A stretch of 64,000 bases of DNA, taken from Devosia submarina. Lineage in GTDB: Bacteria; Pseudomonadota; Alphaproteobacteria; Rhizobiales; Devosiaceae. The notes beneath the pieces were generated by a model. It worked only from the letters and a program-made list of their open reading frames with translations, was not told the origin of the DNA and searched no databases. Every line of letters starts with the position of its first letter. Positions within the stretch are counted from its first letter, which is position 1. The DNA lies in the NCBI RefSeq assembly GCF_003056345.1, contig NZ_PYWB01000002.1, positions 248,001-312,000 on the forward strand, in the 5' to 3' direction. Below, in pieces: positions 2,600 through 62,187 of the stretch. The translations under genes were made by a program, and so were the position numbers.

Positions 2600-4822
2600 A
2601 TGTCCAGTTTGCACCCGACCGGCTCGACCAGCACAAGGTCTATTGCTTTCGTCTCCCTGGCGCTCGCCTTGGCGCTAGTGATGGCGTTTGTCATGGCCGC
2701 CTGGTGGGCGGTGGACAAGATCGATACGCGCGAACTGCTCAATGAACGGCAAAGCATTGCCGCGGGGCTGGTTGCACGCAAGAACCGCATTGCTCAGGAG
2801 CAGGACAGCTCGGCCGTCGGGGACGATGCTGTTGTGAATTTGCGCGCGAACAATCAGCCCTGGATTGCCAGAAATCTTGCGGATTGGATGAGCCAATTCT
2901 TTTCACATGACCGCGTCTACGTGCTGGCGCCTGATGATCGTGTGGTGCGGGCGGCGGAGGCGGGCGAACAGATCCCGTCCATCATCGATCTGCGCGACCG
3001 GGCCGTGGTTGAGCCCATAATTGCCAAGCTTCGGGAGAAGCTTGCCGTGGCTGCCAATGAGGGTGATGCCTCCATGGCAGCGCCCATGGGAACGGGGAAT
3101 ACCGACACGGTTCGCCTCCCGAGCAACGAGCTGGCCTATGTCAGTGTCCGCCCGATAGTGCCGTCCAGCGGCGCCGTTGTGCAGAGGCCGGGCGAAGAAT
3201 TCCTGGTCATTTCGGTGGTGGCGCTGGACGGCGATGTGCTGGGGGAGCTCGGCCAACAGCTGGGCTTGCCGGATCTAAGGATCGGAGGCCCCGGAAAGGG
3301 GAAAGGCGCGCTGCCCGTGGTGAACAATGCGGGGCGCACGATGGGCTTTGCCGTCTGGACGCCCAAGAAGCCGGCGCTTGTGTTGATGCAGGAGACGGCA
3401 CCTGCAACGCTGGGCCTGTTGCTGGTGGGCGGGCTGAGCCTGTTCGGATTCCTGATGTGGCTGCGCCGGACCATGTCGGCCCTGGAAAAGAGCCAGGCGC
3501 AGATCGAATATCTGGCGTTTCACGATCCCCTGACGGGAGTTGCCAACAGGGCGCTGTTTGATGTGCGGCTGCGCAATGCCCTCCACTATGAATATCTGGC
3601 TAAGGCCAAGGTGGCGCTGGTGTCCATTGATCTTGATACGTTCAAGGAGATCAATGACAGCCTTGGGCATGGGGCGGGCGATGAGCTGATCAAACAGGTC
3701 GCCAAGCGCCTCTCGAGCAGGCTTCCTGAAGGTGCGACGCTGACGCGGCTGGGTGGCGACGAGTTCGCAGTGGTGCAGCCTGGCGTGGTCAGTGAGGGCC
3801 ATGCGCGTTTCCTTTGCCAGACGCTGCTCGACACGTTCCATGATCCATTCCTGCTTGCGGGCGAATACGTCCGGGTGACGGCCAGCATGGGCCTAGCGCT
3901 GGAATCGGGCGAGGCCGTGTCGTCAACCGAGATCATGCGCCGGGCGGACGTTGCGCTCTATGCGGTGAAAGCGGCAGGGCGGGATGGCTTTCGCTGTTAT
4001 GAGCAGTCGATGGATCAGTCGCGGCGCGACAAGCGGACGCTCGAGATCGATTTGCGCAATGCGCTGGTGACCAATAGCGGGCTGCACCTCCTCTACCAGC
4101 CGATCTTTGACGCGGTGAGCAGCGCCATTGTTGGGGCCGAGGCGCTGGTGCGGTGGGAGCATCCCACCAGAGGCAATCTTACGCCCGATCTTTTTATCAG
4201 CGTTGCAGAAGAGCAAGGCGTGATTGAGCGATTGGGTCTTTGGGTGCTGAACGAGGCCTGCCGGTTTGCTGCCAATTCCGCCCTGCCCTGGGTGGCGGTC
4301 AATGTTTCCCCGCTGCAATTCAACAATGCTCATTTCGCGCAAAGCGTTCTTGATGTGCTGCGCGCCCAAAATCTGCCACCGCACCGGCTGCAGATCGAAA
4401 TTACCGAAGGGCTGCTGCTGCAGAACTCGCCTGTGGTGCGCGCGAGCCTGGAATCGCTTCGCGCCAATGGTATCGCCATTGCCCTCGACGATTTCGGGAC
4501 CGGTTATTCCTCGATCGGCTATCTGCGCAACCACAGCATCGACAAGCTCAAGATTGATCGCTCCTTTACCCAGCTGATCGGCCGCGACAAGGCGACCGAA
4601 ACCATTGTCCAATCCGTTGTGGAAATGGCCGAGGCGCTTGGGATGACGGTTACAGCCGAAGGGGTGGAAGACGACCTGCAGCGTCATACGCTGGTGAAAC
4701 TGGGCTGTGCAACGCTGCAGGGTTATCTCCTTTCGCGGCCCATTGCTGGAGAGCGGCTCGAGGATCTGCTCGCCAGCGACTTGGCCGGCGCGTCCATGCG
4801 GAAACAACCAGCACTTCGCTAG
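2600..4822 (+). CDS. CHASE4-like GGDEF-EAL cyclic-di-GMP protein
   Basis: A 740-residue inner-membrane protein with an N-terminal membrane segment (about 16-38), a periplasmic CHASE4-like sensor (about 45-260), a second membrane helix (about 268-288), then GGDEF (about 300-465) and EAL (about 478-725). The cyclase signature is an exact GGDEF at 385-389. No RxxD product-inhibition site lies five residues before it. The phosphodiesterase half keeps EAL (514-516), NVSP Asn568, DDFGTG (630-635), KID Lys651 and AEGVE, so both activities look possible. It probably makes or degrades c-di-GMP in response to a periplasmic signal. The convergent neighbour is a permease. c-di-GMP often controls cellulose-like synthases such as the one at 16-20 kb, but no direct link is visible. 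Confidence 0.93.
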   Translation: MSSLHPTGSTSTRSIAFVSLALALALVMAFVMAAWWAVDKIDTRELLNERQSIAAGLVARKNRIAQEQDSSAVGDDAVVNLRANNQPWIARNLADWMSQFFSHDRVYVLAPDDRVVRAAEAGEQIPSIIDLRDRAVVEPIIAKLREKLAVAANEGDASMAAPMGTGNTDTVRLPSNELAYVSVRPIVPSSGAVVQRPGEEFLVISVVALDGDVLGELGQQLGLPDLRIGGPGKGKGALPVVNNAGRTMGFAVWTPKKPALVLMQETAPATLGLLLVGGLSLFGFLMWLRRTMSALEKSQAQIEYLAFHDPLTGVANRALFDVRLRNALHYEYLAKAKVALVSIDLDTFKEINDSLGHGAGDELIKQVAKRLSSRLPEGATLTRLGGDEFAVVQPGVVSEGHARFLCQTLLDTFHDPFLLAGEYVRVTASMGLALESGEAVSSTEIMRRADVALYAVKAAGRDGFRCYEQSMDQSRRDKRTLEIDLRNALVTNSGLHLLYQPIFDAVSSAIVGAEALVRWEHPTRGNLTPDLFISVAEEQGVIERLGLWVLNEACRFAANSALPWVAVNVSPLQFNNAHFAQSVLDVLRAQNLPPHRLQIEITEGLLLQNSPVVRASLESLRANGIAIALDDFGTGYSSIGYLRNHSIDKLKIDRSFTQLIGRDKATETIVQSVVEMAEALGMTVTAEGVEDDLQRHTLVKLGCATLQGYLLSRPIAGERLEDLLASDLAGASMRKQPALR

Positions 4823-7335: not shown

Positions 7336-7425
7336 ACCCAAGCGGGAGAGCGCACGATCTGCTCTTCACCCCGGCACCTAAATCCTTGTACTGGTTTGCC
7401 GTGACGCACACGCACGGAAACAACC

Positions 7426-8358
7426 ATGTCCCTCCTCACAGAAGACGCCAAGGGCGTTTACATCATCGCCGTAACGCCCTTCACGCCCGAGGGCGAGGTG
7501 GATTGGGCAAGCGTTGACCGCATGGTCGACTTCTACGAGGAAAAGGGCGTTTCCGGCATGACGATCCTGGGGCAGTTGGGCGAGGCGCCCAAGCTGACGT
7601 CGGAGGAGTCCCGCGCAATCGCCAAGCGCGTACTGGACCGGGTGGGCAATCGTATGCCCATCGTTGTGGGTGTTTCGGCACCCGGCCTTGCGCCCATGCG
7701 CGAACTCGCCGATTCCGTGATGGACATGGGCGCCGCGGGGGTGATGGTGGCGCCACCCTGGACCACCAAGACGGACGATCAGGCTTATAGCTTCTACGTG
7801 TCCGTTGGTGAGGCTTTGGGCAAGACGCCCTGGGTTCTGCAGGATTATCCGCTGACCACCAATGTGACGATCGCGCCCAAGGTGATCGATCGTATCATCC
7901 GCGACGTGCCGACTTGCGTCATGCTCAAGCATGAGGACTGGCCGGGGCTCAACAAGATCAGTGCCCTACGTGCCTCGAGTGACAAGGGCGAAACGCGCCG
8001 CATCTCGATCCTGTGCGGCAATGGCGGGCTGTTTTTGCCCGAGGAAATGGGCCGCGGCGCCGATGGGGCGATGACCGGCTTCTGCTTCCCCGAGATGATG
8101 GTTGGCGTGGTCGAGCATTATGGAAAGGGCGAGGTGGAGCGCGCGCATGACCTTTTCGATGCCTATTTGCCGCTGGCTCGCTACGAGCAGCAGCAGGGAT
8201 TGGGTCTCGCGGTGCGCAAATATGTATTGGCTAAGCGCGGCGTCATTGCTTCGGCGACCCTCCGCAAACCAGGTGGCTCCCTTGGCAAACTCGACATTGC
8301 CGATGTTGAGCGGCTTTTGGCGCGGCAGGCGAAGCGTCTGCAGGAAATCGGCGCATAA
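7426..8358 (+). CDS. Dihydrodipicolinate synthase (DapA) family aldolase/lyase
   Basis: A 310-residue class I Schiff-base aldolase of the DapA/N-acetylneuraminate lyase superfamily. The TIM barrel starts VYIIAVTPFTPEGEVD. The usual GTTGE turn is GQLGEA at 49-54, Tyr141 sits in LQDYPL, and the Schiff-base Lys168 in CVMLKHED. The altered GTTGE loop (threonines replaced by Gln-Leu) argues against true lysine biosynthesis, because those threonines take part in the proton relay, and for a catabolic lyase such as a 2-keto-3-deoxy-sugar acid or hydroxy-oxo-acid aldolase. No catabolic partner is adjacent. The start is ATG at 7426. The next gene on the same strand is an unrelated sensor kinase. Confidence 0.88.
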   Translation: MSLLTEDAKGVYIIAVTPFTPEGEVDWASVDRMVDFYEEKGVSGMTILGQLGEAPKLTSEESRAIAKRVLDRVGNRMPIVVGVSAPGLAPMRELADSVMDMGAAGVMVAPPWTTKTDDQAYSFYVSVGEALGKTPWVLQDYPLTTNVTIAPKVIDRIIRDVPTCVMLKHEDWPGLNKISALRASSDKGETRRISILCGNGGLFLPEEMGRGADGAMTGFCFPEMMVGVVEHYGKGEVERAHDLFDAYLPLARYEQQQGLGLAVRKYVLAKRGVIASATLRKPGGSLGKLDIADVERLLARQAKRLQEIGA

Positions 8359-8425
8359 GAGCCGCGGCAGCAATGATATGGTCAATTCTTTGGGGTAGCA
8401 TCTTGCCCGGCGGAGGGGCAGAGCG

Positions 8426-9988
8426 TTGAAAGCACGGACTTGGAGGGGCGTCTCCCCCACTCAGCTAGCTGTCGGGCTGTTTACGCTGTTCCTGGCGCTG
8501 TTTGTGGGGCTGTTCGCCTACTACGTCACGCAAGGCATCGAACGGCAGCACGAGCGCTTCGCCGATCGTTCCAGCTATGCTGCCAAGGTTGTCAGCGCCA
8601 ACACCTTCTGGATCTGGGAGGTGGCTATCCAGACGCTTCGGCTTGCCGATGTGGAACTGGGCGAAACCATTTTCAGCGAACCCGACAAGATGGCGCTATT
8701 GCTGAACGACCTTCCTGCCGGCACGGAAATCTACATCGTCGATGCCGCTGGGAACATGGTTTACTCCACTATTTCCGGAGCGGAACGCGTTTCGGTGGAC
8801 GATCGCGGGTATTTTCAGGCTGTGAAAAGCGGCCGCCCATTCTACACATCGGCGCTTCTCCAAAGCAAAATCACAGGTGAATCAATCTTTGTGGTCAGCA
8901 AAAGGGTCGAGCGCGGCGGCGCTTTTGCAGGCGCGATCATGCTCTCCTTCCCTGAAAGCCTGCTGCAGGAAATATTTGCTACGGTAGACCTTGATCCGGG
9001 GTCAACGATCAGCCTGATCCGCAATGACGGACAGTTGATGGCCCGGCACCCACCTGCGGGGGAACCGGTGGACATGAAGAACCATGTCCTTTTCACCGAA
9101 TATCTCCTGTCTAGCCCCGAAGGCACATATGTTTCCGCCGTTTCGCCGGTAGATGGCGTGGCGCGCGTCGTCAGTTACAAGACCGTGCCGGGAACCCCCA
9201 TTATAGCGCTAGCCTCCATTGCGACCGACGAAGCTTGGGATCAGTTCCAGCGCGGCATCATCATCCTGATCCTTATTGTATCACCCGTGCTGATCGGGCT
9301 GGTGCTGGGATGTTTCTGGATCATAAGCCTCCTCAACAAGGCTTCCAGGCGTTCGGAGGAGCTACAGGCCTCGGTTGACCTCAACACCATGCTGTTTCGC
9401 GAAATCCACCACCGGGTGAAAAACAACCTTCAATCGGTGCAGGCACTCGTGCGGATGCAGGACATGCCGGAAACCGCAAAGCGCGATTTGCAGAGCCGGT
9501 TTGCCGCAATGGCGGCCATGCACGAGCATATCTACATGGCCGATCGCTATGAGGATATCGACGCCAAGGAGTTCATCCCAGCCATATTGAGGGAAGTGGT
9601 GCGCGCCTATGGTTCTGACGCAGAGCTGCAGCTGAACATCGCCAGCATGGCGGTGGACAGGGACCATGCAACCCCGCTGGCGCTGTTGCTGAGCGAGTTG
9701 GTCACCAACGCGTTCAAGCATGCCCTTCCGGAGGGCGGCGGGCTGATCACGGTCGAGCTTTCGCCACGTGAGGATGGCCTCGCCAATCTGGTTGTGCGGG
9801 ACAATGGGCCCGGAATGACGGAGCCGGTTCCGAGCAAAAGCATGGGCATGCGGCTCATCAACGGCATTGTGGCGCAGATGGGCGGAACTTATGCCTTCCG
9901 GAACGAGAACGGCACGGTTTTTGAAGCCCAGATCGCCTTGAGCATCAAGGCGCGTTCCGTTGCAGAAAAGGTAGCTTCGCAAGCATAG
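8426..9988 (+). CDS. Membrane HWE/HisKA_2-type sensor histidine kinase
   Basis: A 520-residue inner-membrane kinase. Helix about 13-33, a periplasmic PDC/Cache-like sensor (about 40-270), a second helix (about 277-303), then the HisKA_2 dimerisation helix with EIHHRVKNNLQS (phosphoacceptor His328 or His329) and an ATPase domain with SELVTNAFKHAL (Asn428), DNGPGM and SMGMRLI. This kinase class is abundant in alphaproteobacteria and often feeds response regulators without DNA-binding domains, including the PhyR stress pathway. That fits the EcfG-type promoters nearby but is not proved. The start is a TTG with GGAGGGG eight bases upstream. No response regulator is adjacent. Confidence 0.92.
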   Translation: MKARTWRGVSPTQLAVGLFTLFLALFVGLFAYYVTQGIERQHERFADRSSYAAKVVSANTFWIWEVAIQTLRLADVELGETIFSEPDKMALLLNDLPAGTEIYIVDAAGNMVYSTISGAERVSVDDRGYFQAVKSGRPFYTSALLQSKITGESIFVVSKRVERGGAFAGAIMLSFPESLLQEIFATVDLDPGSTISLIRNDGQLMARHPPAGEPVDMKNHVLFTEYLLSSPEGTYVSAVSPVDGVARVVSYKTVPGTPIIALASIATDEAWDQFQRGIIILILIVSPVLIGLVLGCFWIISLLNKASRRSEELQASVDLNTMLFREIHHRVKNNLQSVQALVRMQDMPETAKRDLQSRFAAMAAMHEHIYMADRYEDIDAKEFIPAILREVVRAYGSDAELQLNIASMAVDRDHATPLALLLSELVTNAFKHALPEGGGLITVELSPREDGLANLVVRDNGPGMTEPVPSKSMGMRLINGIVAQMGGTYAFRNENGTVFEAQIALSIKARSVAEKVASQA

Positions 9989-9994
9989 GAGAGA

Positions 9995-10016
9995 GCCGGC
10001 CACCGAAGTGGCCGGC
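9995..10016. terminator. GC-rich hairpin between convergent genes
   Basis: A perfect 9-bp palindrome GCCGGCCAC / GTGGCCGGC closed by a CGAA tetraloop lies between two convergent stop codons. It has no T tract on either side. It probably acts as a bidirectional terminator or transcript-end stabiliser. Confidence 0.5.
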
Positions 10017-10023
10017 CGCGGGA

Positions 10024-11295
10024 TCATGCCTTGGCAAGGGCCTGGTCGATATCGGCGATGATGTCGTCTATATGCTCGATGCCGATCGAGAGGCGCACGA
10101 GGTCTTCGGACACGCCGGCGCGGGCCAGTTCCTCGGGGGCAAGCTGGCGGTGAGTGGTGGATGCCGGATGGCAGGCGAGCGACTTTGCGTCGCCTATATT
10201 GACCAGCCGCAGGATCATGCCCAAAGCGTCGATGAACTTGCCGCCCGCTTCTGCACCGCCCTTGATGCCAAAGCTGACAATGCCTGATGCATGCCCCTTG
10301 GTGATGCGCTTGGCCACCTCATTGTATTTGCTGGTGGGCAGGGCCGCATAATTGACCCAGCTGACCTTGGGGTGGTTTTCAAGATATTGGGCGACCTTGA
10401 GCGCGTTTTCGCAATGGCGCTCCATGCGCAGGCCTAATGTTTCCAGCCCCATGAGGAACAGGAAGGCGCTGTGCGGCGAGAGCGCTGCGCCCGTGTTGCG
10501 GAGGGGAACGACGCGGCAGCGGCCGATATAGGCTGCAGGGCCCAGCGCCTCGGTATAAACCACGCCATGGTAGGACGGATCGGGTTCGTTGAGGACCGGG
10601 AAGCGGGCCTTGTTGGCCACCCAGTCGAACTTGCCGCTATCGACGATGATGCCGCCGATCGAATTGCCATGGCCCCCGATATATTTGGTGAGCGCATGAA
10701 TGACGATGTCGGCGTCGAAATCGATGGGGCGGCAGAGGAAAGGCGTGGCCACCGTGTTGTCGACGATCAGCGGCACGCCATGGGCATGGGCGACTTTGGC
10801 CAGGAGTTCGATATCGACTACATTGCCGGCAGGGTTGCCAATGGACTCGCAGAACACGGCCTTGGTGTTGTCGTCGATCAGGGCGGCGATCGCATCGATA
10901 TTGCCGGCGTCGGCAAGGCGCACTTCAATGCCCTGGCGCGGGAAGCTGTGCATGAATAGATTATAGGTGCCGCCATAGAGCTGGCTGATCGAGACGATGT
11001 TGTCACCGACGCCGGCGATAGCCTGGATGGCATAGGTGATCGCCGCCATGCCCGAGGCAACCACCAGACCGCCAATGCCGCCCTCCATTTCGGCAACGCG
11101 CTGCTCCAGCACGGCAGTGGTGGGGTTCATGATGCGGGTATAGATATTGCCCGGCACGGCCAGGTTGAAGAGATCGGCGCCGTGCTGCGTATCATCGAAC
11201 GTATAGGAGGTGGTCTGGTAGATCGGCACGGCTGCGGCCTTGGTCGTGGGATCCGAATTGTAGGCGTGGTGCAAGGCGAGGGTTTCGAGCTTCAT
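10024..11295 (-). CDS. O-acetylhomoserine aminocarboxypropyltransferase / Cys-Met PLP enzyme
   Basis: A 423-residue member of the Cys/Met metabolism PLP family, close in length and motif to O-acetylhomoserine sulfhydrylases (MetY/MetZ). The enzyme would join sulfide or methanethiol to O-acetylhomoserine. The PLP-binding Lys204 lies in HALTKYIGGHG; YGGTYNLF, CESIGNPAG and VDNTVATPF are conserved active-site segments, and the tail SIGIEHIDDIIADIDQAL is typical. ATG at 11295 is chosen because AAGAAAGGAA lies seven bases upstream and MKLETLALHH matches the family N-terminus; the frame itself stays open another 39 codons. I examined the leader for a SAM-II riboswitch and could not match the consensus. 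The gene stands alone. Confidence 0.9.
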   Translation of the reverse strand: MKLETLALHHAYNSDPTTKAAAVPIYQTTSYTFDDTQHGADLFNLAVPGNIYTRIMNPTTAVLEQRVAEMEGGIGGLVVASGMAAITYAIQAIAGVGDNIVSISQLYGGTYNLFMHSFPRQGIEVRLADAGNIDAIAALIDDNTKAVFCESIGNPAGNVVDIELLAKVAHAHGVPLIVDNTVATPFLCRPIDFDADIVIHALTKYIGGHGNSIGGIIVDSGKFDWVANKARFPVLNEPDPSYHGVVYTEALGPAAYIGRCRVVPLRNTGAALSPHSAFLFLMGLETLGLRMERHCENALKVAQYLENHPKVSWVNYAALPTSKYNEVAKRITKGHASGIVSFGIKGGAEAGGKFIDALGMILRLVNIGDAKSLACHPASTTHRQLAPEELARAGVSEDLVRLSIGIEHIDDIIADIDQALAKA

Positions 11296-11408
11296 TGGAG
11301 TTCCTTTCTTTGGCATCTGGTGGGTCAGCCCTGATTGCTCATGGAATCGCGCTTCGGCGAAAGCCTGGTGGCATATTCGCCAGTGTGGACGCGAGGGCAA
11401 TGGGGCAT

Positions 11409-11618
11409 TCAAGCGTGTGGCAGTGATCCCTCGCGTGGGCGGAGGATAGAAAGCGTCAGGAGTAGGGCACTGCTCACCGCGTGAAGCAAGATTTGCAAGG
11501 GCACCGACAAGCCGCTTTCGAGCAGGACCAAGGCGATGTCACCGGCAGGGATGATGGCGCTTGCGGCGAGGAGGCGGCCTGCAGTCAGAATAAGGCAAAG
11601 GCGGGAGCGCTGCGGCAT
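11409..11618 (-). CDS. Possible small membrane protein (69 aa)
   Basis: A short frame of unknown family with two hydrophobic stretches (about residues 7-20 and 25-58) and a basic C-terminus. It is supported by GGGAG six bases before its ATG and by lying between genes without overlapping another coding frame. I recognise no relative. It runs away from the EcfG-driven SPW gene and lies upstream of the sulfhydrylase-type gene, so it could also be non-coding leader sequence. Confidence 0.35.
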   Translation of the reverse strand: MPQRSRLCLILTAGRLLAASAIIPAGDIALVLLESGLSVPLQILLHAVSSALLLTLSILRPREGSLPHA

Positions 11619-11658
11619 TCAAATGCTCCCAAGTTCAATGGGCGGGCCGGATGCCGTG

Positions 11659-11683
11659 GGAACCGTTCGGGGAAATTTCCGTT
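11659..11683 (+). promoter_or_regulatory. EcfG-type general stress promoter before the SPW gene
   Basis: GGAAC at 11659-11663, then exactly 16 bases, then CGTT at 11680-11683: a full match to the EcfG consensus GGAAC-N16/17-CGTT. The start codon of the SPW membrane protein is 34 bp downstream. This is the cleanest regulatory site in the window. Confidence 0.75.
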
Positions 11684-11717
11684 GGATTTGCAGCAGATAA
11701 ATACACTGGAGGCTCAG

Positions 11718-12101
11718 ATGATCAACACACGCACGCATGGTATCATCGACTACCTTATGGGCTTGGCGCTTATTCTTGTCCCATTTCTCTTCAACTTCGG
11801 TGCCGTAGAGCCGGCAGCGCTCTGGGTACCAGTTATCCTGGGTATCGTGGTCTTGATGACCAGCCTGATTACCAAGTATGAACTCAGCGTCGCAAAAATC
11901 ATCCCCATGCCAATTCATATTGGCGCGGACGTCGTCGTCGGCCTGCTCCTGGCCGTTTCGCCATGGCTCTTCGGCTTTGCCGACCAGATGTGGATGCCGC
12001 ACGTTGTGCTCGGCGCGCTTGAAATCGGTGTTGCTCTGACCACCCAGAAGCATTCCGCCTATGACGCCCACAATGGTGTCGGCCACGCCGCCCACCGCTA
12101 A
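11718..12101 (+). CDS. SPW repeat membrane protein
   Basis: A 127-residue membrane protein with four hydrophobic segments. Two repeats each end in the pattern that names the SPW family: LILVPFLFNFGAVEPA-LWVPVILG in the first half and AVSPWLFGFADQMWMPHVVLG in the second. The function is not known; members are common small inner-membrane proteins in alphaproteobacteria. ATG at 11718 follows TGGAGG at a good distance; the frame is open further upstream but that part lacks family similarity. A full EcfG promoter upstream and an intrinsic terminator downstream make it a monocistronic general-stress gene. Confidence 0.85.
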   Translation: MINTRTHGIIDYLMGLALILVPFLFNFGAVEPAALWVPVILGIVVLMTSLITKYELSVAKIIPMPIHIGADVVVGLLLAVSPWLFGFADQMWMPHVVLGALEIGVALTTQKHSAYDAHNGVGHAAHR

Positions 12102-12129
12102 TACGCTTCATACATATAAAGCTTTTGAA

Positions 12130-12156
12130 GGTCGCCCTCGGGCGGCCTTTTCTCTT
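12130..12156 (+). terminator. Rho-independent terminator of the SPW gene
   Basis: GGTCGCCC, a two-base turn, GGGCGGCC and then TTTTCTCTTT form an 8-bp GC-rich stem (one G-T pair) followed by a T-rich tract. It sits 28 bp past the SPW stop codon and 40 bp from the convergent acyltransferase stop. Confidence 0.8.
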
Positions 12157-12195
12157 TCGGGTTTGCACCGCCCCAGGAGACTGCTCCGGCAAACA

Positions 12196-13446
12196 TCAAA
12201 TCGGCTGGGTCAGCACGTGTTCTAGAGTATGGACGAGGCCAGTGCTGCCCATGAAGATGTTTGCGCTAAGCCTTTGGACATGCCTGCGCCATGTCCGGGC
12301 GAGGCCTTGAGCATGGGCGATCGCACCCTTGCCCAAGGTTTTGGCACGTTGCCGTGCAGCCCAGCCAACGGTGTGCAGCCGCGCGATACAGTCGGTGCCC
12401 CAATTTCTGGGTCCCACGACTAGAGTGCCCATTGGCACATCACCGTTCCACAAGCCTTGGATGACATGACCATCGGCGGTGGTGGACGAGTCCATGTCCG
12501 TGCAGTCAGTGCCGGCGTAAAAGGCTTCGACGATCATATATTCCAGCACCAAGCCTGGACTAAATTTGCGATAGCGCTCGTCATAGGCACATTTGGGCGT
12601 GAAGATCGTTTCGCCGGCCTGCATGTTGATGCTTAGCGCAATTGGTTTGTCATCCAGCAACAGGCTATCGACCGATGTCTGGCCGTCTCTTGGGCAAAAG
12701 GCTTGGCGGGCAAAGCGCGCATGCTGGGGCTTGGACAGGAAAGAGGTGCCAGCCTTACCCTTCCAGCCGGCATGCTCGACGGCAAGAAACTGTTCGATGC
12801 GTTGCGTCACCAGAGCGGGATCGGCTGCCCGCTCGAAGCGCACCTCGCCCAATTCCTCGAGCCGGCGAATTGTGCGTTGAATATCCTTCACCCGGCTCCT
12901 GGACACGGTTGAACGCAGATGCTCGGCAAAGTCGCACGATGAGCGGGTGAGCCGGGAGCGCCTATAATTTGCCAGCGGCAGGCAGCGCAGCGAGCTGGTG
13001 CCCGCCAGAAAGTTCAAGCGTTGGGCGAAGCGGCTGCAAAGGTCCACATGCGGAAAACTCCAGCGGCGCGGGATCTGACTCGTGCGAATGGCATCGCTCC
13101 AGGCGACGATCACATCGTCCGCCCGGTCCTTGTTGATCAGGGGCTGGCTGCAGAACTGATACAGATTGGTTGCCGCGACGGCGCGCGTGAGAGGAAGCTG
13201 CTTTAGACGGAACGGAAACATGCCGAGCAGTTGGCTTCCGTCCTCGCTGCGAACACAAACGGCGCGAAGCCCTGATGCCCGGTCAATGGTGTTCAGGCCC
13301 GCCAGAACATAGGAACGAGCATAGAAGGGATTCTCGTCCAGCGCATTGCGGGAAAGCTCGTCCCATGCCGCAGCTTCGATATTGCGGATGTCCTTTTCGT
13401 CGAGAACTTCAAGGATCAGTTTTGGCGCACTCGTCGTTGGTTTCAT
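12196..13446 (-). CDS. CelD/BcsL-like GNAT acyltransferase of a polysaccharide locus
   Basis: A 416-residue cytoplasmic protein of the GNAT-related CelD/BcsL group, often found in cellulose and exopolysaccharide clusters and thought to acylate polymer or precursor. Visible family segments are RVKDIQRTIRRLEELG, EHAGWKGKAGTSF, PIALSINMQAGETIFTPKCAYDERYRKFSPG and the final DCTDMDSS with GDVPMG. ATG at 13446 is chosen because GGAGGGGAG lies about eight bases upstream; the frame is open for 95 more codons, but those overlap the flippase gene. The start follows the flippase stop by two bases, so the two genes form one operon and are probably translationally coupled. Confidence 0.85.
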   Translation of the reverse strand: MKPTTSAPKLILEVLDEKDIRNIEAAAWDELSRNALDENPFYARSYVLAGLNTIDRASGLRAVCVRSEDGSQLLGMFPFRLKQLPLTRAVAATNLYQFCSQPLINKDRADDVIVAWSDAIRTSQIPRRWSFPHVDLCSRFAQRLNFLAGTSSLRCLPLANYRRSRLTRSSCDFAEHLRSTVSRSRVKDIQRTIRRLEELGEVRFERAADPALVTQRIEQFLAVEHAGWKGKAGTSFLSKPQHARFARQAFCPRDGQTSVDSLLLDDKPIALSINMQAGETIFTPKCAYDERYRKFSPGLVLEYMIVEAFYAGTDCTDMDSSTTADGHVIQGLWNGDVPMGTLVVGPRNWGTDCIARLHTVGWAARQRAKTLGKGAIAHAQGLARTWRRHVQRLSANIFMGSTGLVHTLEHVLTQPI

Positions 13447-13448
13447 GA

Positions 13449-14846
13449 TCAAAGCTCCCCTCCACGAGGCCTTATCTGGCCAAACACCGGCAGCACCAAA
13501 CCAAGCTGGCTTTGAGCAAACCACGCGAGCAGAATGCCTCGTACCGTCAATCCTGCCACGAGCCCCAGAGCTGCGCCCAGCGGCCCCAACAAGGGTACCA
13601 GGCTGACAGCAACACCCATGTTCACCACCAGTGCCAGCAGAAACGCTAGAGAACAAAGGCGCTCCTTGCCCAGCATGGTCAGAACGTCTTCCCCGGGTCC
13701 CAGCAGGCAGGCAATGACAATGCCCGAGCATAGAACAGGGACCAGATAGTGCGCCTGCCCGTAGTCTGAGCCAAAGAGGTTAAGCAACAATCCCCCAGCC
13801 AGCAAAAGCAGGACGGCTCCTGCTGCCGACACGGTGGTGGACAACAATGCGGACCGCCGGATCAGCGACTGCAATTTCTCGAGTTCGTTCGTGGCAGCGA
13901 GCTTGGCATATTTTTGGGCGGTCACGGCGGTGACACCATAGGGCACATAGGCCAGGATCTGCGCGATGCGCGAGGCCGCAAAGTAAAGCGCCACCGCCTC
14001 GGGTGGGGCAAAGAACCCCAGGATCAGGATGTCGGCATTGGCGAACAGAACTTCGGCAACATCTATGCTCGCGATCGGCAGTGCCGTCTTGGTCCATTGA
14101 TGTATTGAGTAGATTGGTCGGGCGTCACCAAGAGCAGCGCGGAGGTGGACCTTTAGCAGCGCGAACTGGATGGCAACACTCAGGATCAGTCCTAGGACAG
14201 TGAGCGCCATAACCGTATTCGCATCCGCACCCAGGCCGAGTGCCGCAAGGGCGCTCAACCCGATAATGATGATTAGGTGTCGAAGCAGATAGGCCGGGCC
14301 GATGCCCAGATTTGGCCGATCCAGGCCGCGCGCGATGGCTTCCAGAAAATCCTGCAGGGCCAGCAGCGGTATCCCCGCAAGCGCAAGGCTAGCTAATACA
14401 ACATACCCAGGCTCCAGTGGCGAAAGCGGGCTATAGATCAGGGCAGCGGCAGCTGCGATCACTATCGAGGAAACAGCGGCGGTAAAGGCCAAAGCAAAAA
14501 TCAGAAGTCCGCGCGCCCTGCCCTGCTCACCCCGCTCAAGATAATCAGCAAGCAGACGGCAAAGCAGCTGCGCTGTCCCAAACGTGCCGAAATGCCCCAG
14601 CAGCAGCAGGTAGACCAGGACCAGGGCATAGCGCCCGAACTCTTCGGCTCCCATGACTCGCGAAGCAAACACTTGAGCTGCCAACGCAATTCCCGCGCCA
14701 GCAATGCGTAGCCCCATGACGTGAAAGGATGGGCTCGCCAGCTGCGGCAAGCGGGCTGCAAGGCTTCCGACTGCATCCAGTGCCTGGTTGCTGAACAGTT
14801 TCTGCCGAACACTGAAAAGGCTCAAATTACTCTCGTGGGTCCGCAA
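13449..14846 (-). CDS. Wzx-like polysaccharide flippase
   Basis: A polytopic protein of up to 465 residues with about 12 to 14 hydrophobic helices, of the MATE/MOP oligosaccharide flippase superfamily. The N-terminal helix pair LRIAGAGIALAAQVFASRVMGAEEFGRYALVL is diagnostic: short sidechains, then the exchangeable 'LG-x-x-x-FG-x-Y' segment. Such proteins move lipid-linked oligosaccharide units across the inner membrane. The annotated start is TTG at 14846 with a poor ribosome site; ATG at 14717, just before the first helix, is an alternative. It is the first gene of a two-gene unit and diverges from the UDP-sulfoquinovose synthase, with which it probably shares a pathway. Confidence 0.87.
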   Translation of the reverse strand: MRTHESNLSLFSVRQKLFSNQALDAVGSLAARLPQLASPSFHVMGLRIAGAGIALAAQVFASRVMGAEEFGRYALVLVYLLLLGHFGTFGTAQLLCRLLADYLERGEQGRARGLLIFALAFTAAVSSIVIAAAAALIYSPLSPLEPGYVVLASLALAGIPLLALQDFLEAIARGLDRPNLGIGPAYLLRHLIIIIGLSALAALGLGADANTVMALTVLGLILSVAIQFALLKVHLRAALGDARPIYSIHQWTKTALPIASIDVAEVLFANADILILGFFAPPEAVALYFAASRIAQILAYVPYGVTAVTAQKYAKLAATNELEKLQSLIRRSALLSTTVSAAGAVLLLLAGGLLLNLFGSDYGQAHYLVPVLCSGIVIACLLGPGEDVLTMLGKERLCSLAFLLALVVNMGVAVSLVPLLGPLGAALGLVAGLTVRGILLAWFAQSQLGLVLPVFGQIRPRGGEL

Positions 14847-15270
14847 CTTCCATGCGCCGGCGCATCGTCAGGGAGGTTAGACGGGTGTCACCGGAAAAGT
14901 ACTGCTTTGTGCCCTTATGGTTACAAACATGATTAGGAACGGTGGTGGCGCCATCCACCGAGCTCGTTGGGGTGAGCGTCGACAGCTTCTGAAAGCGGAC
15001 GAGTCCGATACTCACCTTGCTTGCCTTTGTCGAGCCAGCAGCAGCGGCGTCTGAGCCCCTTGCCCAGAGCATGATTTCCGCAATTGGCAGCCCACTATTA
15101 AGCTTTTCTTGCCTCTAGCCAGCACCAGTTGGGAACACCGGGCGGCTCCCGGCACGCAGCTTGCCGATGTCGTGCGATGGTGGCGTTTCGGCTCGAGCCT
15201 CTCATCCAGGGGAGATAAAGCCGAACCATTTGGCACCGCAAACGTCTAGTTAGAAGTAGTGGAGGTCTGG
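14847..15270. other. Divergent intergenic region of the polysaccharide locus
   Basis: About 420 bases between the flippase and UDP-sulfoquinovose synthase genes, with no convincing coding frame. It must hold promoters for both arms. The only clear structure is the inverted repeat at 15187-15225. I could not assign -35/-10 boxes. Confidence 0.6.
15187..15225 (+). promoter_or_regulatory. Inverted repeat in the leader of the UDP-sulfoquinovose synthase gene
   Basis: TTCGGCT at 15187-15193 and AGCCGAA at 15219-15225 are exact complements, with an inner CTCT/GGAG pairing around the loop, forming a bulged hairpin. It ends 46 bases before the start codon. It could be an RNA leader structure, or a protein operator; no T tract follows, so it is not a terminator for this strand. 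Confidence 0.4.
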
Positions 15271-16482
15271 ATGAAAATCGTGGTTCTGGGCGGTGATGGC
15301 TTTTGCGGCTGGCCTACAGCCTTGCGGCTGTCGCGGGACGGTCATTCGGTCACCATTGTCGATAACCTGTCGCACCGGCGGATCGATCAAGAGCTAGGGG
15401 TCCAAAGCCTTACCCCCATAACTGCAATCGAGGAGCGGCTCGCGGCGTGGCAGCGCGTGAGTGGCAGGACTATTGCCTTTCAGAATATTGACATTGCTCG
15501 GGATTACGACGGCTTGGCAGCCATGCTGGCCGAGCAGGCGCCCGATGCTGTGGTGCATTTTGCCGAGCAGCGTGCAGCGCCCTATTCCATGCGCAATGCG
15601 GCAACCAAGCGCTACACGATCGACAACAACATCAATGCCACCCACAATTTGCTCGTGGCATTGGTGGATCTCGGCTTCGACACGCATCTGGTGCATTTGG
15701 GAACCATGGGCGTTTATGGCTATGATGGTGATGGGCTTGAAATACCAGAGGGCTATCTGGATGTAACTGTGTCCAACCAAGCGGGGCAGTCTCTCCCTCG
15801 TTCCATTCTTTATCCCACACAGCCCGGAAGCGTTTATCACCTCAGCAAGTCGCTCGATCAGCTGCTGTTCCAGTTTTATGCCCGCAATGACCGGCTGCGG
15901 ATCACTGACCTGCACCAAGGCATTGTTTGGGGCACCCAGACCGAGGAAACCCGGCTCGATGACGCCCTGGTCAACCGCTTCGATTATGACGGGGACTATG
16001 GCACGGTGCTCAACCGCTTCCTTGTACAGGCGGTCAACGGCTATCCATTGACCGTGCATGGCAGCGGCGGGCAGACACGGGCCTTCATCAATATCCAGGA
16101 TACGGTGCGTTGCGTGTCCCTTGCCCTGAACAACCCGCCTCCCCCGGGCGACAGGGTGCGCATCACCAATCAATTGGCCGAAACGCAGAGCGTGCGGGCA
16201 GTCGCCGCCATGGTCGCCGGAATAACTGGCGTTCCCATTGCCAATGTTGACAATCCTCGCAAGGAGGGTGAAAGCAACACGCTGCGTGCATCGAACCAAA
16301 CATTCCGCGGGTTGGGACTGGACCTCATCCTGCTCAAAGATGCGCTGCTGAACGAAACGCTGGAAATCGTGGAACGCTACAAGGATCGCTTCAATCCTGA
16401 AGTGGTACCGGCCCGTTCACTGTGGACGCGTGACAATCGCCCGGGCCTCGTGCCGGGCCTTGGCGAGGGCATAACCAAGTAA
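15271..16482 (+). CDS. sqdB: UDP-sulfoquinovose synthase (SQD1/SqdB type)
   Basis: A 403-residue NAD-dependent extended SDR that converts UDP-glucose and sulfite to UDP-sulfoquinovose. It tracks plant SQD1 and bacterial SqdB along its length: GGDGFCGWPTALRLS (NAD-binding), DNLSHRRIDQELGVQSLTPI, VVHFAEQRAAPYSM, LGTMGVYG with catalytic Thr145, YHLSKS with Tyr189 and Lys193, and NRFDYDGDYGTVLNRF. ATG at 15271 is chosen because GGAGGT precedes it by about six bases; a GTG four codons upstream lies before that site. It shares the TAATG junction with the BcsB-like gene. No sulfolipid glycosyltransferase (SqdX/SqdD) is visible; the neighbours are polysaccharide synthase genes, so the sugar may go into a polymer. 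Confidence 0.93.
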   Translation: MKIVVLGGDGFCGWPTALRLSRDGHSVTIVDNLSHRRIDQELGVQSLTPITAIEERLAAWQRVSGRTIAFQNIDIARDYDGLAAMLAEQAPDAVVHFAEQRAAPYSMRNAATKRYTIDNNINATHNLLVALVDLGFDTHLVHLGTMGVYGYDGDGLEIPEGYLDVTVSNQAGQSLPRSILYPTQPGSVYHLSKSLDQLLFQFYARNDRLRITDLHQGIVWGTQTEETRLDDALVNRFDYDGDYGTVLNRFLVQAVNGYPLTVHGSGGQTRAFINIQDTVRCVSLALNNPPPPGDRVRITNQLAETQSVRAVAAMVAGITGVPIANVDNPRKEGESNTLRASNQTFRGLGLDLILLKDALLNETLEIVERYKDRFNPEVVPARSLWTRDNRPGLVPGLGEGITK

Positions 16483-18170
16483 TGCGCGACCTGTTGCGGC
16501 TCCTGGGCCTGGCAATCCTGGTATTTGCCATAGTCGGGTTTGCCATGATCTACTCCCGTGACAGCGCCTTCCGCTATGGTGTGACGGCCTTTGTGTCCGG
16601 CGCGAGCGGCGCGGTTAGTCGCGGCTTTGTTGACCTGACTGGCTTTGGCAGAGGGGAAAGCACCCCCCAACTGGAAACAACGACCCTGCGGATTGCCCGG
16701 GCGCGGCCGGCAGATTGGGTCGGTCTGACAGGTTACGGCGATCGGACGACCGTGCCTTTTTCGGTGCCTTTGGTGGGCAGCTATGTCGATGGCCAGCTCG
16801 ATTTGCGCTTTGACGCACAACTGGCCCAGGGCAGCACCGGATTGCTCAGCATTGCAGTCAATGGCAGGCAGCGCAGTGAAATCGTGATCGACACAGGCCA
16901 CAACGCCTATGACGTGACCATTCCGCTCACCCAGAGCGATCTTCTGGCAAACACCGTTCTGGTGGAGTTGACCTCGCGCGGAACAGGCAACGACGGGCAG
17001 ATGTGCCCCAGTGAAGCGGCCAATGCAGGGATCGCGATCAGCCTTTTACCCGAAAGTGCAATTGTGCTGACCACGTTGCAAGCGGAGCGGGATCCCCAGA
17101 CTGCCCTGATTGCTGCCGCCGATCCATTGAATATCTATTTGGGAGAAGATCCGGAAGACCAGATCGTTGCTGTCTGGGGTGCCCAGCATATGGCCCGTGC
17201 CGGCGTATCCGCGATCCTGGTTGAAGACAAAGTGACACCCGGGCGGGTCATCGTAACCGACAATGCAACTGCGCCGAACCCGGTCGAGCTCGATAGCGGT
17301 GGCAATATCGTGCTGAACGGGCTGCTGGGCCTGCGCCGGGCTATCGAATTCCGCCGCGCCGAGACTCGTGATCTGTTTGAGCAGTGGCCCATTCCAGCGG
17401 CAGGCCTCACCAAACAAACCATGGCTCGCAATTTCAACGGCACCGAGAGCTGGACTGTTTCCTACCCGATCGCCGACTTGCCTGGGGGGCTTACGCCAAC
17501 CAGCTTTGAGCTGGCGTTGCGCGCCAGCCAGCTGGCGGACGGAAATGAGTGGATCGTTCGCGTCTCGCTCAACGGCAATCTGCTGCAGACGGCGCGTTTG
17601 CCCGGCAACGTGCCCGATATATCCCTAGCGATTGACTTGCCGGTGGCGCTTCAGGGTCTGAATAACACCATCGAAGTCGAGCTGGTCGATACATCACCGG
17701 TCCAGGGCGCCTGCCGGGCTGCTCCTGATGCGCGGGCACAATTAATGCCGCAGAGCCGGTTGGTCGCATCAGCATCCCAACCCAGCACCGGTTGGGGCGC
17801 TTTGGTGCGGCGACTGGCGACCGCCTCCTTTGTTACGCCTGGCAATCAGGCGCCGCTCAATGCCACCCAGGCCACCCGTCTAGCGACCGCACTGGCCCAG
17901 TTCCTGCCAGTGGAGGCCAATGTGACCTTCCAGCCCGAGGCCCCGCCCATGACCCTGACGGCCCTCAGCAAAGACAAGCTTGCCGAAATGTTGCAGCAGC
18001 CTCAAGCGAGCGCGCCCGACCAGGACGCCTGGATCATCATTTCCCGAGGCGGAACAGCGGCTGACTCCCTTAACTTGCATGACCTGAAGGCTCTGGACCC
18101 GGCGAGCGTTCTGGAGCGAATGCATTCAACCAGTTTGGCAATCCTTGTCCAAAGCCCGTCCCCGCAGTGA
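16482..18170 (+). CDS. BcsB-like cellulose-synthase regulatory/periplasmic subunit
   Basis: A 562-residue protein with an N-terminal signal anchor (about 5-24) and a long periplasmic region of jelly-roll and flavodoxin-like modules, as in BcsB, the partner that guides the polymer leaving BcsA. Typical pieces are LDLRFDAQLAQGSTGLLSIAVNG, the CPSEAANAG loop with a conserved cysteine, SYPIADLPGGLTPTSFEL and a second Cys in VQGACRAAP. It is shorter than enteric BcsB (about 750-780) and lacks a clear C-terminal membrane anchor. ATG overlaps the sqdB stop by one base (TAATG). The downstream glycosyltransferase overlaps its 3' end by 26 bases. Cellulose specificity cannot be assumed given the sqdB partner. 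Confidence 0.85.
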   Translation: MRDLLRLLGLAILVFAIVGFAMIYSRDSAFRYGVTAFVSGASGAVSRGFVDLTGFGRGESTPQLETTTLRIARARPADWVGLTGYGDRTTVPFSVPLVGSYVDGQLDLRFDAQLAQGSTGLLSIAVNGRQRSEIVIDTGHNAYDVTIPLTQSDLLANTVLVELTSRGTGNDGQMCPSEAANAGIAISLLPESAIVLTTLQAERDPQTALIAAADPLNIYLGEDPEDQIVAVWGAQHMARAGVSAILVEDKVTPGRVIVTDNATAPNPVELDSGGNIVLNGLLGLRRAIEFRRAETRDLFEQWPIPAAGLTKQTMARNFNGTESWTVSYPIADLPGGLTPTSFELALRASQLADGNEWIVRVSLNGNLLQTARLPGNVPDISLAIDLPVALQGLNNTIEVELVDTSPVQGACRAAPDARAQLMPQSRLVASASQPSTGWGALVRRLATASFVTPGNQAPLNATQATRLATALAQFLPVEANVTFQPEAPPMTLTALSKDKLAEMLQQPQASAPDQDAWIIISRGGTAADSLNLHDLKALDPASVLERMHSTSLAILVQSPSPQ

Positions 18171-19956
18171 CCTGCCGCCAACCGGCCATCAATATTGGTC
18201 AGTCGACAGTGCCCCGGCGACGCTGACGCGTCCGTTGCCGCTTACTTCGGCGCCTCTTGTGCTGCTGCTGTTCACCTTGTTCAGTTCCATAACACTGTTT
18301 GCGGTCAACACCGTGCCGTGGCTTGTCGAGACCTTTCCTAATCACGACTTCGTCTTTTCGCCCTATATGGGCACCCATTCCATCCCTCTACGCATCTTCA
18401 TCCTCAGCTTCTACCTCGCCTTTACGGCGGCCGTAGGCGCGACCTCTTTGGGCAAGCTCAAATTGCTGGTGGAGATGACGTCCTTGTTCATCCTCATCTG
18501 CTGCGCCTTCGACCTGCTCAACGTCGTTCTCTACGAAGCCTTTGGTTTCATCTATTCGCTGCATGTGGTGGAAATCCTTTCGGGCCTGTTCGGCTATTTC
18601 GTGTTTTCGCTCAAGCTGCTGGACCACGGCAGCATGCCCCAGAGGGCCAGCACCCCTGTGGGACGGCGATACAAGGGTCGCGGAGCACTAAGGCTGGGTA
18701 TTGCTGTGGCAATCGCCATTGTGCTTTCGGTTCAGGTCGACCGTCTGGACCTCTTCATCATCGAACGCTTGCGGGACATCGCGCTGTTGGGCGGAACGGG
18801 ACCGGGCGTCTTTCTTTTCCTGCCCATGTTGTTTCTGCTGCTTTATATCGACGGCACGGTCCAGGCGATCATCCGGCGCAAGGTCGTGTTTACCCCGCCG
18901 GTCACGGTGATCGTGCCGGCACATAATGAGGGCCACGTCATCGGCCGCACCATTGCGAGCCTGGATGCCTCGGCAGCCCAATATGGCGGCGAGGTGCTGG
19001 TTCTGGTGCTGAACAACTGCTCGAGCGACGACACGATCAAGGCTACTTGGCTCGCCTTCGACAAGGCAAGGCATCTCAGGGGGCGGGTCGTCGATGTGCC
19101 GACGCCAGGCAAGGCCAAGGCTCTCAACCGCGGGGTCATGGAGGTGGATACGCCCTTCATGATCCGCATCGATGCCGATACGCAGGTTCAGCCGCCAACA
19201 CTTCGCCGCGCCATGCGTCATTTTTCCCGCCAGGGTGTCGGCATTGTTGGAGGATTGCCCTTGGCGCCGGGAGATGGTCCGTTTGATCGGGCCCGTACGC
19301 TCGAAGTGCTGCTCAAGCACGGCTATTACCAGGTTGCGTATGGCGCAACCGACGCCATAGTGGGTGTGCCCGGCATGTTCGCGGCTTATCGCACTCGTCT
19401 TGTGCGCGCGGCGGGCGGGTTCGTCACCGGCATGAATGGCGAGGACACCGACGTTTCCCTGCGCATCGGTGAAATGGGCTATCGGATCGTTGGCGATCCA
19501 TCAGTGGTCTATGTTTCGGAAGTACCAGTGACCTACCGGCACTTGCGCGAACAGCGCATGCGCTGGTTCCGCTCGGTTTATCACGTCAGTGCCCGCAACC
19601 GGAACTACCTCGATAGCTGGCGCTTCTCCATGCGCGGCAAGATCATCCTTCCATTCATGCTGCTCAATTCAGCGCGCCGGGCCATGATGGTGCCATTGGC
19701 GCTGTTCAGCCTGCTCCATCTCGGCTTCGCCTTTGAGCAGGAAGCAACGCTTACCGCTAGCGCTGCGCTCGCTGTCCTATTAGGAGCACCCATGCTGATG
19801 GCGGCCTTCGCAGCTCTCGCCAATGGCCGCCCAGGAGCATTGCTCGGACTGCCGCATTATACCCTGTTCCGCATTGCACGATCATACCTGACGTTGGAAT
19901 CCGTGCTCAGCATTGCTTTCGCCGATTCCCGCAAGATGCGTAAAACTGCAACTTAA
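18145..19956 (+). CDS. BcsA-like processive family 2 glycosyltransferase
   Basis: A 603-residue membrane glycosyltransferase. Several N-terminal helices (from about residue 30) precede a GT-A domain beginning VTVIVPAHNEGHVIGRT; DAD (343-345) binds metal and nucleotide sugar, and QRMRW (470-474) is the QxxRW motif of processive beta-glycan synthases such as cellulose and hyaluronan synthase. C-terminal helices follow. No PilZ domain is seen after the last helix, so direct c-di-GMP control of the BcsA kind is absent here. The start is a TTG at 18145 inside the BcsB-like gene; a start further downstream would cut the first helices. With sqdB and the BcsB-like protein it forms a three-gene operon. 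Confidence 0.9.
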   Translation: MSKARPRSDLPPTGHQYWSVDSAPATLTRPLPLTSAPLVLLLFTLFSSITLFAVNTVPWLVETFPNHDFVFSPYMGTHSIPLRIFILSFYLAFTAAVGATSLGKLKLLVEMTSLFILICCAFDLLNVVLYEAFGFIYSLHVVEILSGLFGYFVFSLKLLDHGSMPQRASTPVGRRYKGRGALRLGIAVAIAIVLSVQVDRLDLFIIERLRDIALLGGTGPGVFLFLPMLFLLLYIDGTVQAIIRRKVVFTPPVTVIVPAHNEGHVIGRTIASLDASAAQYGGEVLVLVLNNCSSDDTIKATWLAFDKARHLRGRVVDVPTPGKAKALNRGVMEVDTPFMIRIDADTQVQPPTLRRAMRHFSRQGVGIVGGLPLAPGDGPFDRARTLEVLLKHGYYQVAYGATDAIVGVPGMFAAYRTRLVRAAGGFVTGMNGEDTDVSLRIGEMGYRIVGDPSVVYVSEVPVTYRHLREQRMRWFRSVYHVSARNRNYLDSWRFSMRGKIILPFMLLNSARRAMMVPLALFSLLHLGFAFEQEATLTASAALAVLLGAPMLMAAFAALANGRPGALLGLPHYTLFRIARSYLTLESVLSIAFADSRKMRKTAT

Positions 19957-20040
19957 AGCCTCACGGCCTGTTCTTGTTCTTGGGCGAGTGTCCATGCGCG
20001 GTTTTCGGCAGGTGCCGAGCTGCGGTGAGGTCCCGGAGCA

Positions 20041-20331
20041 ATGCGCTATCCGCTGGTGGCATTTCTGTTCGTCTTTTTGCTGGGTCCCTATACAGCCCAT
20101 GCTCTGCTTACAGGCTCTGCGCGCTTCCAGTCCAAGTCGGCAGTCCAGGCTGTAGAGATCGGTCCCATTGCCAAAGCGGTTATCCACAGCAGGAGCTTGG
20201 ATGCTGGCGCCCGACTATCCCACTTGATCAGCTTGAATGCGCCCGGGATTCGGTCTGCTCCCATGCGCGCTGGCTTTCAGCACACGGGCAATACCCTGCC
20301 CTCGCCATCTCCGGGGTCCCAGCTGCGCTAG
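20041..20331 (+). CDS. Possible short secreted protein after the glycosyltransferase
   Basis: A 96-residue frame with a good signal peptide: MRYPLVAFLFVFLLG, then AHA-LL as a plausible cleavage site. The mature part has no recognisable family. GAGG and GGAG lie upstream of the ATG. It starts 85 bp after the glycosyltransferase and on the same strand. Sequence in another frame just beyond its stop (20332-20560) also looks protein-like, so this could be the front of a frameshifted gene. The 19957-20574 stretch holds nothing else I can support. Confidence 0.35.
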   Translation: MRYPLVAFLFVFLLGPYTAHALLTGSARFQSKSAVQAVEIGPIAKAVIHSRSLDAGARLSHLISLNAPGIRSAPMRAGFQHTGNTLPSPSPGSQLR

Positions 20332-20574
20332 GCCGGATAGGCGGACAGCGACGGCGCTCTTTCTTACAGCCGAGCTTGCCGCTCATGGCTGCATCTATGC
20401 GATGCATGAGGTGTGGGACTACGGCGATATAGGCGTCGCGACAATCCCATTTAGATCCAGCGACAGACAGCCATTTCGCAGATGTGACCACGCAACTCCG
20501 TGGTTACAAACTGCTCCCATATGGGAACAGGCCGCTGCTAGGTCTTTGAGATCACGGGCATTTTAGAAGGGGGG

Positions 20575-20664
20575 TGGCGGAGAGAAAGGGATTCGAACCC
20601 TTGAGACGGTTCCCCGCCTACACACTTTCCAGGCGTGCGCCTTCGACCACTCGGCCATCTCTCC
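20575..20664 (-). tRNA. tRNA-Ser (anticodon GGA)
   Basis: On the minus strand the sequence begins GGAGAGATGGCCGAGTGG and ends with TTCGAATCCC, the acceptor complement TCTCTCC, discriminator G and an encoded CCA. The 7-bp acceptor stem is perfect, the anticodon loop reads CTGGAAA, and a long variable arm (GGCGGGGAACCGTC) marks a class II serine tRNA. It reads UCC and UCU codons. Confidence 0.97.
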
Positions 20665-55121: not shown

Positions 55122-55721
55122 GTGACAGCTGCGTTTTTTCTGGTGCGCCATGCCGCCCATGACAATGTGGGCGGGTTTTTGGCCGGACGGGCACCTTCGA
55201 TCCATTTGGGTCCCGATGGGCTGGCGCAGGCGCAGCGCCTGGCCACGCGCATGGCGCGGGAGCGCTTCGAAGCGATTTATGCCAGCCCTCGCGAGCGAAC
55301 GCAGGAAACAGCCGCTGCCATTGCTGCGGCTAGTGGCGACATGCCCATCAGCATTGCCGAGGAACTGGACGAAGTGGATTTCGGCGCCTGGTCCGGTTCG
55401 ACCTTTGATCAGCTCAACAAGCTCGATGAATGGCAGCGCTGGAACAGCCAGCGCAGCATGGCCGAAACTCCCAATGGGGAAACCATGATCGACGTGCAGC
55501 GCCGCTCAATTGGGCTGGTACGGCAGCTGGCGCGGCAGAATGCCGATGGCCGCTTCGTGCTGGTCAGCCACGCCGATATCATCAAGTCTATAGTCAGCCA
55601 CATATTGGGCCTGCCGATCGATGCATGGCCGCGCCTGGAAATCTCGCCGGCGTCAATCACCACGATCGTGGTTGGGCAATGGGGCAGCAAGGTGCTGACC
55701 CTTAACGAAACTACCCCATGA
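55122..55721 (+). CDS. Histidine phosphatase family protein
   Basis: A 199-residue phosphoglycerate-mutase-like phosphatase. LVRHAAHDN holds the catalytic His in the RH(G/A) motif, SPRERTQETA the second Arg, and LVSHADIIKSIVSHILGLP the second catalytic His; Glu/Asp in ELDEVDFGAWSG is the acid. The start is a GTG. It opens a three-gene plus-strand unit with the methyltransferase (16 bp) and the glycosidase-like gene, so it may dephosphorylate a sugar or sugar-nucleotide intermediate. Confidence 0.9.
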   Translation: MTAAFFLVRHAAHDNVGGFLAGRAPSIHLGPDGLAQAQRLATRMARERFEAIYASPRERTQETAAAIAAASGDMPISIAEELDEVDFGAWSGSTFDQLNKLDEWQRWNSQRSMAETPNGETMIDVQRRSIGLVRQLARQNADGRFVLVSHADIIKSIVSHILGLPIDAWPRLEISPASITTIVVGQWGSKVLTLNETTP

Positions 55722-55737
55722 ACAAGGAGGCATGCGC

Positions 55738-56490: not shown

Positions 56491-56493
56491 AGC

Positions 56494-57435: not shown

Positions 57436-57438
57436 CCC

Positions 57439-59872: not shown

Positions 59873-59878
59873 AATACT

Positions 59879-61881: not shown

Positions 61882-61891
61882 TATTTTAGCC

Positions 61892-62155: not shown

Positions 62156-62187
62156 GGCAAACACTCCTTACTGGTGATCGGTCGAAC

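Follow-up and report, generated by a model that had tools for sequence, protein, structure and literature searches.

The 64,000 nucleotide stretch of Devosia submarina analysed here (the window; contig NZ_PYWB01000002.1, positions 248,001 to 312,000) carries a three-gene operon composed of sqdB, for a UDP-sulfoquinovose synthase, a gene for a BcsB-like periplasmic protein, and a gene for a membrane-embedded glycosyltransferase of family GT2. This cassette probably encodes the machinery of a synthase-dependent exopolysaccharide together with a dedicated supply of UDP-sulfoquinovose (UDP-SQ). The basis for this reading is the gene order and its conservation, family membership, active-site residues, predicted folds and a largely split SqdB tree.

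All three genes lie on the forward strand. The sqdB gene (15271-16482, 403 amino acids), assigned by family match, active-site residues and conserved linkage, is preceded by TGGAGG at 15260-15265, and its TAA stop shares one base with the ATG of the BcsB-like gene (16482-18170, 562 amino acids) in the sequence TAATG at 16480-16484. The 3' end of the latter is overlapped by 26 bases by the GT2 gene (18145-19956, 603 amino acids), whose TTG start at 18145 is backed by the N-termini of its relatives, most of which have the motif SVDSAP there. A preliminary description of this DNA had named an SqdB homologue joined by TAATG to a BcsB-like gene which overlaps a BcsA-like QxxRW glycosyltransferase; all of this is borne out, the glycosyltransferase motif being QRMRW and the middle protein having a predicted BcsB fold.

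The window SqdB matches plant SQD1 with an E value of 2e-92. It retains the Thr/Tyr/Lys triad (T145, Y189 and K193) together with M146, R101 and H96. Among the residues necessary in SQD1 or Agl3 that were taken from the portion of PMC4388408 used here, all those checked are kept except Glu147, which is replaced by V148; valine is likewise found in all 19 SqdBs linked to sqdD. From its sequence the enzyme is predicted to make UDP-SQ from UDP-glucose and sulfite. On the NCBIfam model for UDP-sulfoquinovose synthase (NF041015) it scores 334 bits and misses the curated cut-off of 575 bits. Since the sqdD-linked SqdBs of Sinorhizobium and Palleronia score equally low (332 and 326 bits), this cut-off cannot tell cassette from sulfolipid SqdBs, and the missed cut-off was rejected as a mark of a divergent enzyme.

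The BcsB-like protein of the window had no match in a Pfam scan, even at an E value of 1. Of four relatives scored on PF03170 (BcsB, cut-off 21), L120 (32.1) and L156 (38.4) pass, L182 (19.0) is below the cut-off and L160 has no match. The best structural matches of its predicted model are BcsB proteins; when PDB sequences were searched with a profile made from the BcsB-like alignment, no BcsB was retrieved, the relation being visible by fold alone. BcsB usually has a C-terminal membrane anchor, whereas a hydrophobic stretch is N-terminal in 75 of 77 of the cassette BcsB-like proteins and C-terminal in 4 of 77; the window protein itself has the N-terminal anchor and no C-terminal one.

The GT2 protein matches Pfam GT2 domains and has DAD, ED and QRMRW, the motifs DxD, ED and QRxRW being invariant in all 52 aligned GT2s. 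PilZ is not among its Pfam matches, and its predicted model ends with a long helix and a short tail. The model resembles hyaluronan synthases, cellulose synthases and also the mannosyltransferase PcManGT; the latter is the first Foldseek match, while the best VIA match is a hyaluronan synthase. The cassette thus shares with BcsA-BcsB a membrane GT2 with DxD, ED and QxxRW and an adjoining gene for a periplasmic partner of BcsB fold, but differs in that no PilZ was found in its GT2 and in the presence of a dedicated sqdB. No BcsC or BcsZ genes were found among the cassette partners scanned. Hyaluronan synthase, whose donors are UDP-glucuronic acid and UDP-N-acetylglucosamine, differs from the cassette in these donors and in that, to our knowledge, it has no BcsB partner.

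A scan of named genomes with a GT2 profile gave 136 relatives, of which the best 80 were kept as loci; counts out of 79 below leave out L128, which was missed by the codon-score gene caller and is counted by tblastn alone. The 80 loci have sqdB in 76 cases, the BcsB-like gene in 74 and both in 70. In 75 of 80, sqdB precedes the GT2 gene in the same orientation and at a distance of at most 3.5 kb, and in 69 of these the BcsB-like gene separates the two; in L176 sqdB is convergent with the GT2 gene. The four loci without sqdB (L100, L102, L114 and L160) come from genomes which all have sqdB elsewhere. By order the loci are distributed over Rhodobacterales (56), Hyphomicrobiales (11), Sphingomonadales (9), Parvularculales (1) and Oceanospirillales (1), with two unassigned. 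The linkage therefore recurs in four named alphaproteobacterial orders and one gammaproteobacterium, and also on a plasmid of Rhodococcus qingshengii (L182), where the GT2 scores 505 bits and the BcsB-like protein 104 bits on the respective profiles. On this plasmid (L182 1430-12945) the cassette is immediately followed by an alkyl-sulfatase-like gene, and a SulP-type anion transporter gene lies some kilobases before it. Culturable carriers of the cassette include Sulfitobacter marinus and a Tateyamaria strain.

Of 385 genomes sampled across the class, 31 have SqdB and three the GT2 (E 1e-60); all three GT2 genes, the window's own included, adjoin sqdB, and in one of them (G318) the gap between sqdB and GT2 is too small for a BcsB gene. 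A search of 297 genomes from the order gave, apart from the window's own SqdB, five top matches (G202, G242, G173, G115 and G080) which have the BcsB-like and GT2 genes downstream, G242 being of the same family as the window's genome and the BcsB-like gene being split into two pieces in one of these loci (L050). Three genomes occur in both sets (L103, L106 and L146 of the named set are L047, L049 and L048 of the order set), L103 being from Pelagibacterium lacus of the Devosiaceae. The other 45 sqdB loci fetched from the order (L051-L095) have no cassette; in 14 of them sqdB is followed by a gene of about 270 codons (cluster 2) resembling SqdD, a pattern which fits the annotated loci sqdB-glycosyltransferase-short-chain dehydrogenase/reductase of Marinovum, Loktanella and Palleronia and sqdB-glycosyl transferase of Sinorhizobium. 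The survey of sqdB neighbourhoods for BcsB and GT2 genes suggested in the preliminary description hence finds a linkage which is not unique to this strain, so that the refuting test named there does not overturn the reading, and the association of sqdB with the GT2 gene is more than chance.

The SqdB tree was built by a quick method without bootstrap on 136 rows, one short row (less than 340 amino acids) of the 137 found having been dropped, and every SqdB from L100-L179, including L176, was labelled as cassette. The 19 sqdD-linked SqdBs form a single clade (SH-aLRT 100), and most of the cassette rows (76) fall in one group with support 94. The cassette labels need 5 changes on the tree, against a mean of 43 in shuffles. 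The main cassette group is not a strict clade, as the Rhodococcus row and the rows of L049, L050 and L106 are outside it, the L176 SqdB is placed in a third group, and the unlinked rows L188 and L189 are inside it. These two are off-locus sqdBs of the four genomes whose GT2 locus is without sqdB; of the remaining off-locus copies, L191 is of sulfolipid type and adjoins sqdD, and L190 belongs to the third group. Cassette SqdBs and sulfolipid-type SqdBs are in this way largely apart in the tree.

The third group, in which 32 of the 136 rows branch together (with one cassette-labelled row), is without sqdD and without the cassette. In this group L184 and L186 adjoin an annotated 3'-phosphoadenosine 5'-phosphosulfate (PAPS) reductase and glycan genes, and the neighbour of L190 was read as similar; a PAPS reductase is within three genes of sqdB in just two of the 31 order loci labelled "other". 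Perhaps this group serves yet another sulfoquinovose glycan. For the cassette itself, PAPS reductase was rejected as a conserved supplier of sulfite, being near one of 81 cassette loci.

The 49 cassette genomes searched, which represent 50 of the 80 loci, include four with SqdD at E 1e-30, each time beside a second sqdB, and 45 in which none was found; the four genomes with both the cassette and a separate sqdB-sqdD pair show that two sqdB copies with different partners coexist. The preliminary description had reported no sulfolipid glycosyltransferase near sqdB and proposed looking for a separate sqdD. SqdD is indeed absent beside the window sqdB, and in the window genome neither a second SqdB nor an SqdD-like GT8 was found (SqdX, a GT4, was not searched for), the only GT8 having 29% identity to SqdD over 157 amino acids (E 0.004). 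Compared to the sqdBDC sulfolipid operon, described for Rhodobacter sphaeroides in the part of PMC11346425 used here, the cassette has an SqdB of the same family, with 61-62% identity to that of Sinorhizobium and the same active-site residues, but carries the BcsB-like and GT2 genes in place of SqdD (GT8) and SqdC, and its SqdBs are largely separate in the tree.

Recurrent neighbours of the cassette, identified by Pfam on one representative each, include a SlipAM-like barrel, Porin_4, Sel1 repeats (25.3 bits, below the cut-off of 30.7), RTX and GH10 proteins, GH10 enzymes being encoded in the Sphingomonadales loci (for example L153 4170-5321). In 37 of 79 loci a member of the barrel, porin or Sel1 cluster occurs no more than two genes away from the cassette; the 747 more remote genes of the same loci include no member of these clusters. 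Of the six loci without the BcsB-like gene, five (L145, L150, L159, L162 and L172) are among the six with Porin_4. Within the same distance a hybrid histidine kinase is found in 29 of 79 loci and a molybdopterin-oxidoreductase-like gene in 28, a recurrence which suggests regulated expression. Beside the window cassette there is no outer-membrane-type gene, and neither of the two latter genes adjoins it. In Sulfitobacter marinus (L138 5563-6687) the gene of a Hint_2-domain protein is directly 5' of sqdB. In L049 (10618-15731) and L050 (4292-9406) pst transport, phoU and phoB-type genes immediately precede the cassette (identified by Pfam on L049 and by clustering on L050), which hints that phosphate may control it in that lineage. 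A general role for such control was rejected: a two-heptamer Pho-box scan upstream of sqdB gave 11 of 14 bases in five of 80 loci, two of which (L047 and L103) are one genome, and the window reached 9 of 14, as good as 70% of its shuffles.

In the mechanism we propose, SqdB would convert UDP-glucose and sulfite to UDP-SQ, and the membrane GT2, with UDP-SQ as its probable donor, would act processively, polymerising sulfoquinovose (SQ) alone or with a second UDP-sugar and threading the chain across the membrane by way of a channel of its own. The BcsB-like protein, held by its N-terminal helix, would take up and guide the chain in the periplasm, and the neighbouring beta-barrel, porin or Sel1-repeat protein may provide the outer-membrane exit in many relatives; such a gene is not beside the operon in this genome. 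The preliminary description had proposed export of an SQ polymer through a BcsB-type channel: the genetic coupling on which this was founded recurs across the loci, and the exported SQ polymer as product is what we infer from it.

The strongest alternative, which we regard as unlikely, is that the GT2 represents a third kind of sulfolipid synthase, not homologous to the others, which uses UDP-SQ to place SQ on diacylglycerol or some other lipid, and that the BcsB-like protein helps to carry the glycolipid across the periplasm. The failure to find the SqdD route to the sulfolipid sulfoquinovosyl diacylglycerol (SQDG) in 45 of 49 cassette genomes would agree with it, as would the phosphate-related setting of L049 and L050 and the fold shared with PcManGT, but four genomes have an sqdB-sqdD pair as well as the cassette, BcsB and outer-membrane-type partners are features of polymer export, and there is no consistent Pho box upstream of sqdB. 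The GT2 might otherwise make a glucan or mixed polymer with SQ as a minor unit or decoration, or a periplasmic oligosaccharide, and not a long SQ-rich exopolymer. A single GT2 can take two donors, as hyaluronan synthase does, and 42 of 79 loci have no outer-membrane partner within two genes; however, no gene for making a second sugar was seen among the recurrent neighbours, sqdB being the constant partner, and we hold this explanation to be improbable too.

The preliminary description had also left room for a chance neighbourhood, with sqdB serving ordinary sulfolipid synthesis. Nothing was found in its favour, the genus alone being uninformative as the congeners examined lack the cassette. 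It is refuted by the conserved order in 75 of 80 loci and three of three in the class sample, and no SqdD was found in the window genome, so that we give it hardly any credence.

The cassette is in a variable region (7400-20664) which ends at a tRNA-Ser(GGA) gene on the reverse strand (20575-20664). This tRNA, with the two genes on its right, is retained in nine of ten congener stretches, and none of nine tested genes of the window between 7.4 and 20 kb was found in the about 12 kb fetched upstream in those nine; the tenth stretch has no match for the tRNA or for the first right-hand gene either. Among the 297 genomes of the order set, the six others of the genus have no strong SqdB match. Because congeners keep the tRNA-Ser flank without the cassette-side genes and without a strong SqdB, the cassette is accessory in this genome.

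Upstream, on the opposite strand, are found a GNAT/CelD-like acyltransferase (12196-13446; PF13480) and a Wzx/MatE-like flippase (13449-14846; PF01943, PF01554). They diverge from the cassette as previously described, but do not belong to the conserved unit: by tblastn (E 1e-4) neither was found in the other cassette loci, with flanks of up to about 10 kb on each side, and they were rejected as parts of the system. Elsewhere in the window, a CHASE4-GGDEF-EAL protein (2600-4822), possibly a cyclic di-GMP enzyme, is encoded about 10 kb from the cassette, and a second glycan-type set (55122-63573) includes a polysaccharide pyruvyl transferase, a UDP-sugar dehydrogenase, a Gfo/Idh/MocA oxidoreductase and an FrhB-like protein.

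No bacterial SQ polymer and no operon of this kind is described among the open-access matches listed, a body of literature with most subscription papers and preprints outside its scope. The Agl3 system of Sulfolobus acidocaldarius, where SQ is part of an archaeal N-glycan according to the parts of PMC4388408 and PMC12890257 used here, is similar to the cassette in that UDP-SQ goes to a glycan and not to a lipid, but its product is a protein-linked oligosaccharide. We know of no BcsA/BcsB-type machine used by that system.

An sqdB whose UDP-SQ product is known mainly from membrane lipids is here tied into a conserved cellulose-synthase-like operon, an arrangement suggesting that various bacteria produce a sulfonated sugar polymer. 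A wider proposal, on which we are evenly divided, is that dedicated GT2-BcsB synthases make exported homo- or copolymers of SQ as a class of polysaccharide widespread in bacteria, with loci found so far chiefly in Rhodobacterales (56 of 80 loci) but reaching to a Rhodococcus plasmid; such polymers would amount to a pool of organic sulfonate that has gone unrecognised outside the membrane lipids. The presence of sqdB is at times taken as SQDG production, as in a figure legend of PMC11346425 for Rhodobacter species; if our reading is true, such an inference would be unsafe in cassette genomes, and the presence of sqdB in bacteria without SqdD would be accounted for. The polymer would then provide a permanently charged, phosphate-free matrix and an added source in the sulfonate cycle.
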